Positions 30,154 to 39,008 of a stretch of DNA of 61,242 bases are shown here, piece after piece. How positions within the stretch are numbered: the first letter of the stretch is position 1; each line of letters opens with the position of its first letter. Source of the stretch: Terriglobia bacterium (GTDB taxonomy: Bacteria; Acidobacteriota; Terriglobia; Terriglobales; Acidobacteriaceae); contig JAIQFW010000044.1 in the NCBI GenBank assembly GCA_020073105.1, forward strand, positions 1 to 61,242, written 5' to 3'. Both the position numbers and the translations under genes were made by a program. The notes beneath the pieces were generated by a model. It saw only the letters and a program-made list of their open reading frames with translations. It was not told the DNA's origin and did not search any database.

Positions 30154-32790
30154 CTAAGTTCTCCGCCCCTGTACTTGAGGTTGCGGTCTCCCCGCTTTCC
30201 ACAGCTTGAATGCTTCAAACCACAGGATGCTGAACGCCGCCGCACCTCCGCACACCGCAAGGTCGATCGGATGCAGCACGGAGAAACGAAACAGGTCCCG
30301 CGAAAAAGGCACAAAGATCACGAACCCCAAGAACCCGATAGTCCCTCCAATAACCCACCAAAGTGAGGGATTGGGGGAGTGCAGCCCAGCCAGAATCGTC
30401 CTCGCCCACGAGCGGTTCGTGAAGATCAATGCCAGGTTCGAAATGACGAGCGTGGTGAACGTCAACGCCCGTGCCTCCTGTTCCCCTCTCCCGCCGTAAT
30501 GGGCTGTGGCAAAGACCGCCAGGACCACACCTAACACGCTGAGACCCTGCAGAATGCTGATGGCAAAGGTCCGGCGTCCGAACAATGGTTCGTTGGCGGC
30601 ACGCGGAGGATGCTGCATCACAGTCGATTCTTCACGCTCTGCCTCAAGCACAATGGAACAGGCCGGGTCGATGATGAGGTGCAAGAAGGCCACGTGGAAG
30701 GGCAACAGAATAAGGGGCCATTTCATCATTACCGGTATTAGCGTCAGGCCAATGATCGGAAGATGACTGGCCAAAGTGTAGGCAATCGCTCTCTTAAGGT
30801 TGTCAAAAATCCTCCGCCCCAGCCTCACGGCATGGACAATCGAAGAGAAATCATCATCCAACAACACCAGCGCAGCAGCTTCCCGAGCTACGTCGGTACC
30901 CCGTCCGCCCATGGCGATACCGATATCGGCAGCTTTCAGCGCCGGAGCATCATTCACCCCATCGCCGGTCATGGCTACGGTTTCACCGTTTGCCCTGAAG
31001 GCCTGGACCAGTCGCAACTTCTGTTCGGGAACAACCCGGGCAAAGACGTTCGTGGTGCGAACCCGCCGCCGAAGTTCGTCATCCTCCATCGAGTCGAGTT
31101 CGGAACCGGTGATGCACTGATCATGATTTCTTAGTCCAATCTGGCGTCCGATATTCGCGGCAGTGCCCGCGTAGTCCCCGGTGATCATCACGACCTGGAT
31201 ACCCGCCGAGTAGCATTCCTGCACGGCCTTCGCTACACCGGGGCGCACCGGATCAGCCAGACCCACTAGACCAAGAAACTCGAAGTCGAAGTCGTGCTGC
31301 TTCCGCGGTAGCTCAGATTCCTGAAAGTAAGCTCGGGCCACGCCGAGTACCCGCAGTCCCTCGCTGGCCATCGAGCCGACCCGGGAAAGGAGTGAGTCCA
31401 TCTGCTCAGGCCTGAGGTGGCAAAGGTCGGCGATGGCTTCAGGTGCGCCTTTGGAGGCGATGACATAGTCCGTTCCAGCCGGCGATCTCCAGACCTGCGA
31501 TAGTGCGAGCAGCTCGGGTGAGAGCGGATATTGGCGAACAAGGACCCAGTCGCCATGCAAGTGCTCCGTGTTCGCCAGCCTGGATGTCCCAAACTCATTC
31601 AACGCCCGTTCCATCGGATCAAAGGGATCGCGATGGTTCGCTAGGATACTAAATTCGATTAAGCTATGAAACTTCTCCGGGAGCGAAAGATTCGAACTGT
31701 TGCAGACGTGAAATTCACTGTCCGCAAATAGGTCTTGGACTGACATCCGGTTCATCGTCACAGTGCCTGTTTTGTCCACGCATAAGACCGATGCCGAACC
31801 CACAGTCTCCACTACTGGCACGCGACGCGTAAGGACGTGCCGCTCGGAAATGCGCCAAGCTCCCAGAGCCATGAAAATGGTCAAGACCACCGGCAATTCG
31901 TTCGGCAGAATGGCCATCGCCAGTGTCAGACCTGACAAAACCCCATCGAGCCAACTACCTCGCGTAAGGCCGTGGAGCAGGACAACGAGTAGACAAAGCA
32001 GACCACCAATAATCGCCAGGATGCGGACCCAACGGGCTGTTTCTTTCTGCAGATGCGTTTTCTCAAGATGTACGGACTCCAGAGCTTTGCCAATCTTGCC
32101 GATCTCGGTATGCAATCCGGCCGCCTGCACAATCGCAGCTCCGCGACCCTGTACCACCAGGCTGCCGGAATAAACAAACGGCAGGTCGTCGCCCCCTGGG
32201 CGAACGGCGTCGACCGGCTTGGCACTCCCGGCTTTCCGAACCGGTACCGATTCCCCGGTCAGCAATGATTCGTCACATGACAGGTTGACGCAGGAAATGA
32301 CACGGGAATCAGCCGGGACTCGGTCTCCTTCGCAAAGAACAACAACATCGCCCCTCACAACTTCGCGACCCGGGATGCGCGTGGGCTTGCCGTCGCGGAT
32401 CACCAGAGCGCGCGGGCTAGAAAGATCCCGCAGAGCTTCCAGCGTGCGCTCGGTCTTGTGCTCCTGGTAGAAGCTGATGCCGGTCACCACGAACACAAAA
32501 CCGAGCAGCATCAACGCTTCCTGCACATCGCCGAGAAACAGGTAGATAGTTCCACAGGCTACGAGGAGCAGAAAGATTGGCTCTTTCACCACGTCCCATG
32601 CGATCGCAGCAACGCTTCGGGGCTTGGACGAAGGCAGCTCGTTCGGCCCATCGATTCTTAGACGCTCTCTTGCTTCCTCTGAAGATAGTCCGGCTAATTG
32701 GGGCTCATTTTCAAATTCGAGAGCAGGAGGGCCAGCGGAGTCATGATCGGCTCCGGGTAACGTTGATAGTTGTACAGACGCAGCATCCAT
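30154..32790 (-). CDS. P-type cation-transporting ATPase (Ca-type)
   Basis: This 878-residue P2-type ATPase has a cation-ATPase N-terminal domain (LSSEEARERLRIDGPNEL), TGES at 178-181 in the actuator domain, the phosphorylated Asp339 in DKTGT, KGAPE near 447-451 in the nucleotide domain, TGDGVND at 608-614 and about ten membrane helices. It resembles calcium/manganese pumps such as CtpF. In the fourth helix the ion-binding motif is ILPNELP at about 294-300, where calcium pumps have PEGLP or PEEFP, so the key Glu is Asn; ion preference is therefore unclear. It is the last gene of the stress cluster, 26 bases after the Rnk-type gene. Confidence 0.92.
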   Translation of the reverse strand: MDAASVQLSTLPGADHDSAGPPALEFENEPQLAGLSSEEARERLRIDGPNELPSSKPRSVAAIAWDVVKEPIFLLLVACGTIYLFLGDVQEALMLLGFVFVVTGISFYQEHKTERTLEALRDLSSPRALVIRDGKPTRIPGREVVRGDVVVLCEGDRVPADSRVISCVNLSCDESLLTGESVPVRKAGSAKPVDAVRPGGDDLPFVYSGSLVVQGRGAAIVQAAGLHTEIGKIGKALESVHLEKTHLQKETARWVRILAIIGGLLCLLVVLLHGLTRGSWLDGVLSGLTLAMAILPNELPVVLTIFMALGAWRISERHVLTRRVPVVETVGSASVLCVDKTGTVTMNRMSVQDLFADSEFHVCNSSNLSLPEKFHSLIEFSILANHRDPFDPMERALNEFGTSRLANTEHLHGDWVLVRQYPLSPELLALSQVWRSPAGTDYVIASKGAPEAIADLCHLRPEQMDSLLSRVGSMASEGLRVLGVARAYFQESELPRKQHDFDFEFLGLVGLADPVRPGVAKAVQECYSAGIQVVMITGDYAGTAANIGRQIGLRNHDQCITGSELDSMEDDELRRRVRTTNVFARVVPEQKLRLVQAFRANGETVAMTGDGVNDAPALKAADIGIAMGGRGTDVAREAAALVLLDDDFSSIVHAVRLGRRIFDNLKRAIAYTLASHLPIIGLTLIPVMMKWPLILLPFHVAFLHLIIDPACSIVLEAEREESTVMQHPPRAANEPLFGRRTFAISILQGLSVLGVVLAVFATAHYGGRGEQEARALTFTTLVISNLALIFTNRSWARTILAGLHSPNPSLWWVIGGTIGFLGFVIFVPFSRDLFRFSVLHPIDLAVCGGAAAFSILWFEAFKLWKAGRPQPQVQGRRT

Positions 32791-32816: not shown

Positions 32817-33299
32817 CTAGGCCGCTAGGCTTGCGCTTTGAATCGTTCGACTCGAATGCAGTTCTCGTCTATTTGATCGATCTGATCGAGCTTGTCTTCT
32901 TGTTATTTCAGGTCTTTGCAACACGCGCTCAGCCCTCAACCTCTTGGCGCCTCCAGGCACTTTCGTCTCGATGACGTCTCCCTGGCTGCGCCCGAGGAGC
33001 GCTATCCCCACGGGTGCGAGAACAGAAACCCGACTTGTGGAGATGTCTGCGTTGTCCGGAAACACCAGCGAGTAAAGCTGTTTCTTTCGCGTATCGAGGT
33101 CCAGAAGACGGATACTGGAGTTCATCCTGATCACGTCTCTCGGAATGCGCTTTGAAGACGTTACCTCTGCACTCTCCAAGGTTTGTTCCAGCGATTCGAG
33201 TTGCAGTTGATCTCGAAAAAGAGAGTGCTTCAGAGCCCGAACCAAACGGCTGAGCCTGTCCATATCAGCGTCAGTGACCATAATGGAGCGGTTTTTCAT
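32817..33299 (-). CDS. Rnk/GreA-type factor with C-terminal extension
   Basis: The 160-residue protein starts behind AAGGAG. It has a short N-terminal helical part and a GreA/GreB C-terminal domain (LYSLVFPDNADISTSRVSVLAPVGIALLG, abbreviated here to VSVLAPVGIALLG) followed by GDVIETKVPGG, the signature of Rnk, which binds RNA polymerase and is called a nucleoside diphosphate kinase regulator. The last ~35 residues, rich in Arg and Ser, extend beyond the usual end and may come from an old frameshift. It lies between a small membrane protein gene and the P-type ATPase gene. Confidence 0.82.
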   Translation of the reverse strand: MKNRSIMVTDADMDRLSRLVRALKHSLFRDQLQLESLEQTLESAEVTSSKRIPRDVIRMNSSIRLLDLDTRKKQLYSLVFPDNADISTSRVSVLAPVGIALLGRSQGDVIETKVPGGAKRLRAERVLQRPEITRRQARSDRSNRRELHSSRTIQSASLAA

Positions 33300-33551: not shown

Positions 33552-34454
33552 TTAATCGTTTTCAGGTTTCTGCCCGCCGCCGACTGTCAGCACCGGGCAC
33601 TTGGCTAGAGACACAACTCTATGCGCGATCGAACCAAAATGACTTGCCGTCTGGGCGAAAGCTCCCGCGCCCCGCACACCCATGACGATGATGTCTGCTG
33701 CCAAATCATTCGCGACACCGAGGATGCGGTCTGCTACCGGTCCGATTTCCGCTACCACTTGCGGTTCGTACAGCAACTCCGGTTCGAGTGGGATCATTTT
33801 GCGCAAGCGCTTCTCGGTTAACTGTATTGCGAGATGGGGCGAATCTCGAAGAACTCCTTCGACTACGTGCACCAGCGTCAGATGTGCTTCATATTCATGG
33901 GCGAGCAAGACGGCGAATTCTGTCGCTCGCAATGACCCAGGTGAGAAATCCGCGGCGCAAACGATGCTCTGAAAACCAGGAGGCGCCCCTGCCACCACGT
34001 GCCGGCCAATGGTCAGTACTGGACAGGGTGCCTCACGAATTATTTCTTCAGCGATCGAACCAAGGAGCACTTTGCCCAATCCTGCCCGACTGCTCGTGCC
34101 CATCACCACCAAATCAGCATCGTACTTTTGCGCGAAGTCGATGAGCACCTCCGCAACGTCCCCATGGCCCAATAGTGCCTCGCAGCGCTGACCGCGATGT
34201 CTCAACGGGTCGATCAATTGATTTAGGGTATAGGTCGCATAATCTTGGGCTTCCTTCAAGATCCGCTCTACGGATTCAGGGTGAGCAAAGGCATAGGCCT
34301 CCTGTGGTATGACATGCGCCGCGTAGAGCTCCGCTCCGTAGCGGTCTGCCAATGCGACTGCAGACGGCAAGGCTCGATTTGCTGAATGATCAAAATCAGT
34401 TGCAAACAGAATGTTCTTGAGTGCGATCTGCTGCTTTACCTCCAGCGCTCTCAT
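33552..34454 (-). CDS. Tandem-domain universal stress protein
   Basis: The 300-residue product starts at 34454 behind GGAGGTG and has two USP domains. The first (KNILFATDFDHSANRAL to PCPVLTIGRH) has the nucleotide-binding motif GTSSRAGLGKVLLGS, matching G-x2-G-x9-G-S; the second (FQSIVCAADFSPGSLRA to CPVLTVGGG) has GVRGAGAFAQTASHFGS, altered in the same place. The first may bind ATP and the second may be regulatory. USPs accumulate in starvation and hypoxia. A 90-bp copy of its 5' coding end lies at 35319-35408, a relic of tandem duplication. A further USP gene is at 41244. Confidence 0.9.
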   Translation of the reverse strand: MRALEVKQQIALKNILFATDFDHSANRALPSAVALADRYGAELYAAHVIPQEAYAFAHPESVERILKEAQDYATYTLNQLIDPLRHRGQRCEALLGHGDVAEVLIDFAQKYDADLVVMGTSSRAGLGKVLLGSIAEEIIREAPCPVLTIGRHVVAGAPPGFQSIVCAADFSPGSLRATEFAVLLAHEYEAHLTLVHVVEGVLRDSPHLAIQLTEKRLRKMIPLEPELLYEPQVVAEIGPVADRILGVANDLAADIIVMGVRGAGAFAQTASHFGSIAHRVVSLAKCPVLTVGGGQKPEND

Positions 34455-34569
34455 CTCGCACCTCCTTCTTCCCCGGATGCCGGATGCTGTTCGGAGGAGG
34501 GACGCTGTTGCCAACTTTGTTCCCGGGTCAGCGGCCCTGACTCCTCTGCCTCGCTGCAATCGTTCAGCA

Positions 34570-35133
34570 TCAATTTTGAGAGCTGCCATGCGCAGGCTCC
34601 AGGCTTTGCAAGCGGTCATTGGCATTGTGGTAGTCGATTATCGTGTCTACCGTTTGATAAAGCCCGTTCGCGTGCTGAGACAAGTCCGCGACCGTCTCTT
34701 TATACTCAGGCTGACGCAGATTCCAGCGTCCGGGTCGTAACAGGCTGATGGCTTCCCCGGTTGCATCTGCCACGGCAACCAGATGTGGCCGGGCCCTCTC
34801 GATCGCCATCTGCTGCGCGTCGCTTGCCTGCGGCTTCATTTCCTCGAGCTCTTCCAGCATTCGTCCCATATCGTCAATTCCATGCCGAAGGATGCTCAGA
34901 TAGTAGGTATGACTCTCCCAGCCCGTCTGCTGGTTACGGGTGAGAGACAAAAGCGTCTCGGCATCACGGCTGATCTTAGCGGCCTGTTGCTCAAACGTGG
35001 ATAGATGGACCGCTACGTGGGATACCTTTGCAGCCTCCCGGGTAGATTGGTTCGTATCGGCTGAGAGTACAGCCGGGGCCGACAGCATCGCGGCTGCTGC
35101 CAATGACGCAACAAGAATTCTTCTCCGTTTCAT
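34570..35133 (-). CDS. Secreted helical protein of unknown function
   Basis: This 187-residue protein has a Sec signal peptide (KRRRILVASLAAAAMLSAPAV) and an otherwise all-helical mature part (THVAVHLSTFEQQAAKISRDA-like heptads; MGRMLEELEEMKP). A ribosome-binding site AGAGGAG precedes the ATG. The helix pattern is reminiscent of four-helix periplasmic proteins such as CpxP-like or cytochrome c'-like folds, but there is no heme motif. It is conserved in position within the stress cluster; its role is unknown. Confidence 0.75.
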   Translation of the reverse strand: MKRRRILVASLAAAAMLSAPAVLSADTNQSTREAAKVSHVAVHLSTFEQQAAKISRDAETLLSLTRNQQTGWESHTYYLSILRHGIDDMGRMLEELEEMKPQASDAQQMAIERARPHLVAVADATGEAISLLRPGRWNLRQPEYKETVADLSQHANGLYQTVDTIIDYHNANDRLQSLEPAHGSSQN

Positions 35134-36118: not shown

Positions 36119-36907
36119 TCAGGCGACCAGCGAGGTCGTCTTGTCACAAGCGAGACGCTCGCTGACAACCTCGACGATATGCCGATAGGCGTACTTACAG
36201 ACGATGTCACGGGCTCCCAAGGCTTGGAAACCGGTGAAATCCGTAATCTCCGGTGCGCTCGGCTGCATGACAATGCAGGGCATTTGTGCGCCTCTCTTAC
36301 GCAATGCCTTCAGCAAATCCTCGCAATCCGCATCCGGCAAGTATTCGTTTACCAGCACGAGATCGAAGACCTGCGAATTCACTAGCCTTAGCGCGTCCCT
36401 AGCGGTCCAGACGGTCGTTGTGTCAAATCCCGCGTCCTCCAGCATTCTCTCCAGAGCGATCAGGACCTCCTCGTTGCAATCAGCTACTAGAACTTTCTTT
36501 CGTGGCGTTTTCATAGTCTTCTCTCTGCCGCTGCTCGCTGGGCCAGAACGGCAACTCTCCTGCTCCTGACTGAGCAATCGAGAAATCTTCATGTACTTGC
36601 CGCCACCCTTGTGTCGCTCAAGCCGGCGGCCAATGCACACTCCGGCCTTGTCGGCCACACGGGCGATTGCCGCGTAGATGCTTGAATCCCGGTCCTCGAT
36701 TACGATCACCGTCGATGACACCAAAACAACGGTCACTCGGCAGTGTTTATCAACCCCACCCCTAGGACCGTTCAGGTCCCCAAGGCTCACCCGTACTCTT
36801 CTGATCCGTCTGGCGAAGCGTTCCAGTGCGAAACAGAGCCGCCGCTCAATGTGGCCGCGCAATTGTTTGGTGATGCGGATGTCCTTTCCGTAAATCTCGA
36901 ATTCCAT
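36119..36907 (-). CDS. HPF-like ribosome hibernation domain fused to a pseudo-receiver
   Basis: This is a 262-residue two-domain protein. Residues 1-100 resemble the HPF/RaiA fold (MEFEIYGKDIRITKQLRGHI, RRIRRVRVSLGDLNG), which binds the 30S subunit in resting cells. After a ~30-residue linker, residues 136-258 are a receiver domain: Asp143 in VLVADCNEE, but the phosphorylation site is Asn187 in DLVLVNEYLP, while Lys238 is retained. It therefore cannot be phosphorylated in the usual way. An internal ATG at 36514 with an AGAGAAG-like site could also make the receiver alone. It starts 8 bases after the M48 protease stop and has an AGGGGG site. Confidence 0.82.
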   Translation of the reverse strand: MEFEIYGKDIRITKQLRGHIERRLCFALERFARRIRRVRVSLGDLNGPRGGVDKHCRVTVVLVSSTVIVIEDRDSSIYAAIARVADKAGVCIGRRLERHKGGGKYMKISRLLSQEQESCRSGPASSGREKTMKTPRKKVLVADCNEEVLIALERMLEDAGFDTTTVWTARDALRLVNSQVFDLVLVNEYLPDADCEDLLKALRKRGAQMPCIVMQPSAPEITDFTGFQALGARDIVCKYAYRHIVEVVSERLACDKTTSLVA

Positions 36908-38041: not shown

Positions 38042-38081
38042 AAGATAGATACGTAACTTTTACGAAAGTGTGGGCTTCTGT

Positions 38082-39008
38082 ATGGAATGGCTCAACTATC
38101 ATCACTTGCTCTACTTCTGGACGGTGGCCCGGACTGGCAGCATCTCCGCAGCAAGTAAAGAGCTCCGGCTTGCGTCTCCGACGATCAGCAATCAGATTCA
38201 CAAGCTGGAAGACAGCCTGGGCGAAGAGCTACTGCGCCGCTCCGGCCGCAAGTTGGTCCTCACCGATATGGGACGGATCGCGATGCGCTACGCGGATGAG
38301 ATCTTTTCCCTGGGGCAGGAATTCACCAGCACGATGAAAGAACGACCCACTGGCCGGCCGTTGAGATTCTGTGTCGGGATCGCCGATGTATTGCCGAAGG
38401 TCATCGCGTTTCGATTGATCGAGCCTGCGTTGCGGTTGCGTACTCCAATTCATTTGATCTGCCGCGAGGGCAGGCCGGATCATTTGTTGGCCGATCTGGC
38501 TGTTCATGACGTTGACGTAGTTCTTTCCGACACTCCAGCCAGTCCTGCCGCCAATATTCGAGCATTCAATCACCTGTTGGGCGAATGCGGAGTCAGTTTT
38601 GTCGCTCCCAAGAAACTGGCATTCCTCAAGAAGGGGTTTCCCCGCTCACTCGACGGCGCGCCTTTCCTGCTTCCCTTGGACAACACTGCTTTGCGGCGCG
38701 ATTTGGACGAATGGTGTCATTCCCAAAAGCTCAGGCCTGTGGTTATGGGTGAGTTTGCCGACCTCGCCCTGCTCAGAATCTTTGCAGAAGAAGGGTTTGG
38801 AGTGTTCGCAGTGCCAAGTGTAATGGAAGATCAGATGCGGCAGTACGGCTTCTATAAGATCGGGGCGACAACCAAGATTACTGTACGCATCTATGCAATT
38901 TCCGTGGAGCGGCAAGTACGCCACCCTGCGGTAGTTGCCGTTTGCGAGACCGCACGGAACGGGTTATTTCGCACGAGTAATCGGCAGCCAATAGAAGCGA
39001 AGGGCTAG
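38082..39008 (+). CDS. nhaR: LysR-family regulator, NhaR-like
   Basis: The 308-residue protein begins MEWLNYHHLLYFWTVART, the hallmark of NhaR-type LysR regulators, with a helix-turn-helix (GSISAASKELRLASPTISNQ) in the first 60 residues and a periplasmic-binding-like effector domain. NhaR activates the sodium/proton antiporter gene nhaA in E. coli in response to sodium. No antiporter gene is seen nearby; the divergent neighbours are stress genes. The start at 38082 is chosen by family length; a GTG at 38070 in frame is possible. Confidence 0.8.
   Translation: MEWLNYHHLLYFWTVARTGSISAASKELRLASPTISNQIHKLEDSLGEELLRRSGRKLVLTDMGRIAMRYADEIFSLGQEFTSTMKERPTGRPLRFCVGIADVLPKVIAFRLIEPALRLRTPIHLICREGRPDHLLADLAVHDVDVVLSDTPASPAANIRAFNHLLGECGVSFVAPKKLAFLKKGFPRSLDGAPFLLPLDNTALRRDLDEWCHSQKLRPVVMGEFADLALLRIFAEEGFGVFAVPSVMEDQMRQYGFYKIGATTKITVRIYAISVERQVRHPAVVAVCETARNGLFRTSNRQPIEAKG

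Follow-up and report, generated by a model that had tools for sequence, protein, structure and literature searches.

A short HPF gene and a pseudo-receiver gene, separate neighbours in Terriglobia, read as one frame in a single genome

The ribosome-hibernation factor HPF is usually thought to be controlled by its amount. Its long form consists of an N-domain, a linker of about 30 residues and a C-domain, and the case of S. aureus HPF and YwlG shows that proteins outside the ribosome can act as partners of hibernation factors (PMC9522360). Pseudo-receivers, for their part, account for ~6% of bacterial receivers; a review calls their mechanisms a mystery, and the way in which they act in the absence of phosphorylation is an open question (PMC12632262). 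Among the residues that replace the Asp in aspartate-less receivers, Asn ranks second in frequency; its deamidation to Asp is a known possibility in them, and Acidobacteria belong to the groups with the most such proteins (PMC4395418). The open-access literature yielded nothing on HPF together with a pseudo-receiver and only incidental mentions of HPF with a receiver, and the domain-fusion literature, as represented by its titles and abstracts, offered nothing of use.

The window analysed here is the whole stretch of 61,242 nucleotides from a Terriglobia bacterium (Acidobacteriota; assembly GCA_020073105.1, contig JAIQFW010000044.1). A sequence-only reading had singled out in it a frame in which an HPF-like domain is followed by a receiver without its phosphorylation site:

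36119-36907, minus strand: one open reading frame of 262 aa with an ATG start
36569..36907, minus strand: HPF/S30AE module (PF02482), residues 1-113; relatives have it as a separate gene
36515..36568, minus strand: linker, residues 114-131, where relatives have the hpf-rec junction (intergenic in most of them)
36566..36568, minus strand: codon 114, CAG (Gln); TAG in three relatives besides the closest homologue
36512..36514, minus strand: internal ATG, at the place where the separate rec gene of relatives begins
36119..36514, minus strand: pseudo-receiver module (PF00072, receiver fold), residues 132-262, stop codon included
36347..36349, minus strand: codon 187, Asn at the phospho-Asp position

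Both domains are what they had been taken for. Ribosomal_S30AE (Pfam PF02482) matches residues 4-98 with E 1.9e-11 and 45 bits against a curated cut-off of 23.7, and Response_reg (PF00072) matches residues 139-239 with E 3.9e-11 and 43.5 bits against 30.2; both matches are far beyond chance. With 39.3 bits, the HPF half falls just under the cut-off of the NCBIfam yfiA equivalog (40.9), and is thus a divergent HPF/RaiA member rather than the curated equivalog; the PDB chains that it matched in a profile search are HPF/RaiA proteins. The Pfam search found no S30AE_C dimerisation domain (PF16321) in the 262-aa protein. Since the same genome encodes elsewhere a canonical long HPF with PF16321 (L038), the window protein is an accessory short HPF. 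Modelled with AlphaFold, the receiver adopts an ordinary receiver fold (pLDDT 85.8, pTM 0.83) that matches solved receivers in structure comparison, the VIA-align list being filled by the receiver half alone. The model of the fused protein shows a pair of folded domains, disorder at 99-133 (pLDDT <50) and a pTM of 0.52, and so gives no sign of a fixed domain arrangement; we sought an HPF-receiver interface in it and none was readable.

The same genome holds another protein with an HPF-like part: one of ~383 aa (G000:C35:11681-12829, plus strand; loci L040 and L150), with a weak S30AE/HPF domain at 69-151 and, towards its C-terminus, a sigma-70 region 4 / PhyR-sigma-like domain. It was matched in 37 of 61 related genomes, several times over nearly its whole length, and by its sequence looks like a conserved single protein, unlike the hpf-rec fusion.

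The receiver lacks the set of residues of a phosphorylatable one (the Asp, two acidic residues, Thr/Ser and Lys) and, having the fold and no phospho-Asp, belongs with the aspartate-less receivers. Residue 187, at the end of beta-strand 3 and in the usual place of the phospho-Asp, is Asn (in LVLVNEYLPDADCE); D143 and K238 are kept, C144, N187 and Q215 are replacements, and K-3 is I235, the conserved Pro that precedes beta-strand 4 having served to align the T position. Throughout the orthologous clade (support 100/99) the positions DD1, DD2, D, T, K-3 and K read D-C-N-Q-(I/V)-K, the exceptions being one Ser for Asn and one Leu for Gln; besides the phospho-Asp, the orthologues lack the second acidic residue, the Thr and the aromatic at K-3. 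The loss therefore goes further than the sequence-only reading had it, reaching additional active-site and coupling positions. Nor is the Asn a private change, as it would be if other copies conserved the Asp: once the column was aligned, 10 of the 11 orthologous receivers had Asn and one had Ser, and this candidate explanation is rejected. Related receivers outside the clade have D, G, A, S or E at the site. The Asp was thus lost long ago in this clade, and the broader group is permissive. In pairwise comparison with the closest homologue, HPF has a dN/dS of 0.22 and the receiver one of 0.17, which indicates that both modules evolve as functional proteins under purifying selection and leads us to reject a pseudogene. 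In sum, the receiver is a pseudo-receiver that is conserved, has an ordinary fold and evolves under purifying selection; it is predicted not to be phosphorylated.

What did not hold up is the fusion as an established module. Eight species from the window's family (G162, G315, G301, G109, G144, G255, G365 and G341) have the two modules as separate genes, adjacent or overlapping and mostly in a shared cluster, which encode HPF proteins of 112-131 aa and receivers of 130-142 aa; the named records matching these relatives are MAGs that carry the labels Terriglobia, Acidobacteriaceae and Candidatus Sulfotelmatobacter. The window alone is fused, its eight closest pairs being two genes, and none of the other genomes searched gave the fused frame. 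No second HPF-receiver fusion was found in searches of relatives, family, class and phylum, which overlapped and together covered roughly 1,000 distinct Acidobacteriota genomes; the large ones scored 6 candidates per genome, so that weak matches could escape them. Plasmid and phage records gave single-domain matches or none. On these searches, a conserved fusion family is rejected. A phage or plasmid origin was considered separately and also rejected, with no phage match, no viral contig and only partial plasmid matches.

The closest homologue, in G162, aligns over query residues 1-261 with 72% identity and one in-frame TAG as the only obstacle, and this TAG lines up with the CAG of Gln114 in the window (36568-36566). 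A TAG is also present at this position in G301 (just after a TGA), G109 and G144; G255, G365 and G341 have CAG there, and their HPF extends for 18 more residues in another frame, whereas in the window the frame in which hpf runs on is that of the receiver. It had been foreseen that the fusion would be a frameshift artefact if relatives had two genes with a stop near the junction: two genes and a stop are largely what we found, and what distinguishes the window from its closest homologue is a lost stop, not a frameshift. At L046-L048 the hpf stop overlaps the rec start (ATGA or GTGA), and another frame of the window linker contains a TGA overlapping the rec start (ATGA), as arranged in L046 and L047, so that a one-base indel would also split hpf from rec. 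The relatives' rec start codon (ATG; GTG in L048) occupies the position of the window ATG at 36514, and the proposed internal start is thereby well supported, being in frame and shared with the orthologues; the ribosome-binding site proposed with it is less convincing, GAGAGAAGACT ahead of the ATG being purine-rich with a weak Shine-Dalgarno match. Free receiver may still be made from 36514. Taken together, the two-gene relatives, the single TAG/CAG difference and the lack of another fusion in our searches point to the loss of a single stop codon in this genome alone, whether genuine or produced by faulty assembly.

Around the frame lie the following genes:

38070..39008, plus strand: LysR-type regulator, divergent from M48-hpf-rec; same place in L061-L065
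36916..37965, minus strand: M48 peptidase gene (PF01435), directly upstream of hpf with an 8 bp gap; same place in L061-L066
35908-36054 and 35534-35836, both minus strand: small open reading frames between rec and the next gene, kept in relatives; no Pfam match for either
33552..34625, minus strand: tandem universal stress protein (USP) gene (PF00582, two stretches); the real start is probably further in
32817..33299, minus strand: GreA/Rnk-like protein gene (PF01272 and PF14760)
30154..32790, minus strand: P-type cation ATPase gene (PF00122 and PF00689)

The order LysR (divergent), M48 peptidase, hpf, rec, small frames, tandem USP, GreA/Rnk-like, P-type ATPase is common to L061-L065 in whole or large part and to L066-L068 and L070 in part, and the locus is a stress-type cluster. 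Elsewhere, two more distant single-domain receivers immediately precede an hpf; the usual Asp is missing from one (L107:1025-1899), and the other is apparently canonical (L060:986-1839). Receiver-hpf neighbourhoods may have arisen more than once.

We consider it probable, on these data, that Terriglobia have a conserved pair, an accessory short hpf followed by a stand-alone pseudo-receiver in a stress-type cluster, and that in the window the hpf stop was lost and is read through. If the stop codon was lost in the source genome, the ribosome would read through the former junction into the receiver. To judge by family and fold, the HPF half would bind the 30S decoding region and idle ribosomes, and the receiver half, as part of the same stress regulon, would be a module that binds proteins independently of phosphorylation; in the fused product the two would presumably be loosely tethered, with the old start at 36514 still giving some free receiver. 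A counterpoint is that the genus is represented by one genome, and a fusion kept by selection within the genus is possible. It is unlikely, though still to be reckoned with, that the stop was never lost and that one wrong base, or an indel in the linker, made a fused frame out of what are truly two genes: the fusion occurs in a single genome, whose assembly is in 308 contigs, one base separates it from the homologue's stop, and the TGA of the other linker frame sits as in L046 and L047, but the linker has no long homopolymer and L046-L048 have Gln at the same position, with hpf running past it.

How far the receiver concerns HPF at all is a different question. That the two are mere neighbours in a stress cluster, and their fusion neutral, is possible, though less likely than not. 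Orthologous pseudo-receivers occur without a neighbouring hpf in two lineages (L069 and L070, the latter with USP and GreA genes still downstream), and this speaks against a switch dedicated to HPF; at one locus (L042/L061) the HPF is closest to L044/L045 and the receiver to the window and L041, as if exchanged independently, which suggests recombination inside the operon. Against this, nine of the 11 clade receivers stand directly after hpf, some overlapping it, and L012, from a different family of the class, also has hpf followed by rec, there with an Asp-bearing receiver. The same adjacency, together with the two intact folded domains of the model and a layout resembling that of long HPF (PMC9522360), makes it thinkable that the pseudo-receiver controls or dimerises the HPF half in place of the usual C-terminal dimerisation domain. 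Such a working signalling protein is nevertheless very unlikely: the fused form is not conserved, its model shows no interdomain arrangement, two lineages retain the receiver without a neighbouring hpf, and a long HPF with PF16321 is already encoded in the genome. The resemblance to long HPF lends the dimerisation idea no support. Slightly less doubtful, and still improbable, is the proposal that the Terriglobia short HPF has a dedicated phosphorylation-independent pseudo-receiver partner that would bind it and govern when ribosomes idle, joined here into a built-in receiver-fold interaction domain.

Our verdict is that hpf and the pseudo-receiver are joined here by accident. The finding is real as sequence and was over-read as architecture, being a modest variant of known parts; as a reading of the 262-aa frame, 'fusion' is weak. 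The conserved gene pair deserves more notice than the fusion itself. A direct link could be tested on its two small proteins; and if HPF and the receiver have no link, the locus would be a clean example of gene fusion through the loss of a stop codon.

Compared with the systems already described, the locus shows clear similarities and equally clear differences: (i) Like short HPF/RaiA (YfiA; PF02482), the window HPF is a single S30AE domain of ~100 residues; it differs in its NGPRGG-DK-C subgroup motif and in adjoining a pseudo-receiver gene, to which it is joined here. (ii) With long HPF (PF02482 and PF16321, e.g. S. aureus HPF) the fused frame shares an N-terminal S30AE domain, a flexible linker of ~30 residues and a C-terminal domain, although the latter has a receiver fold and is not the S30AE_C dimerisation domain. 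(iii) The RitR-type aspartate-less receivers (PMC4395418, PMC12632262) resemble the window receiver in fold, in an Asn at the phospho-site and in further active-site losses; RitR, however, is a DNA-binding regulator, whereas the hpf-linked receiver of the relatives is a stand-alone single domain encoded next to hpf.
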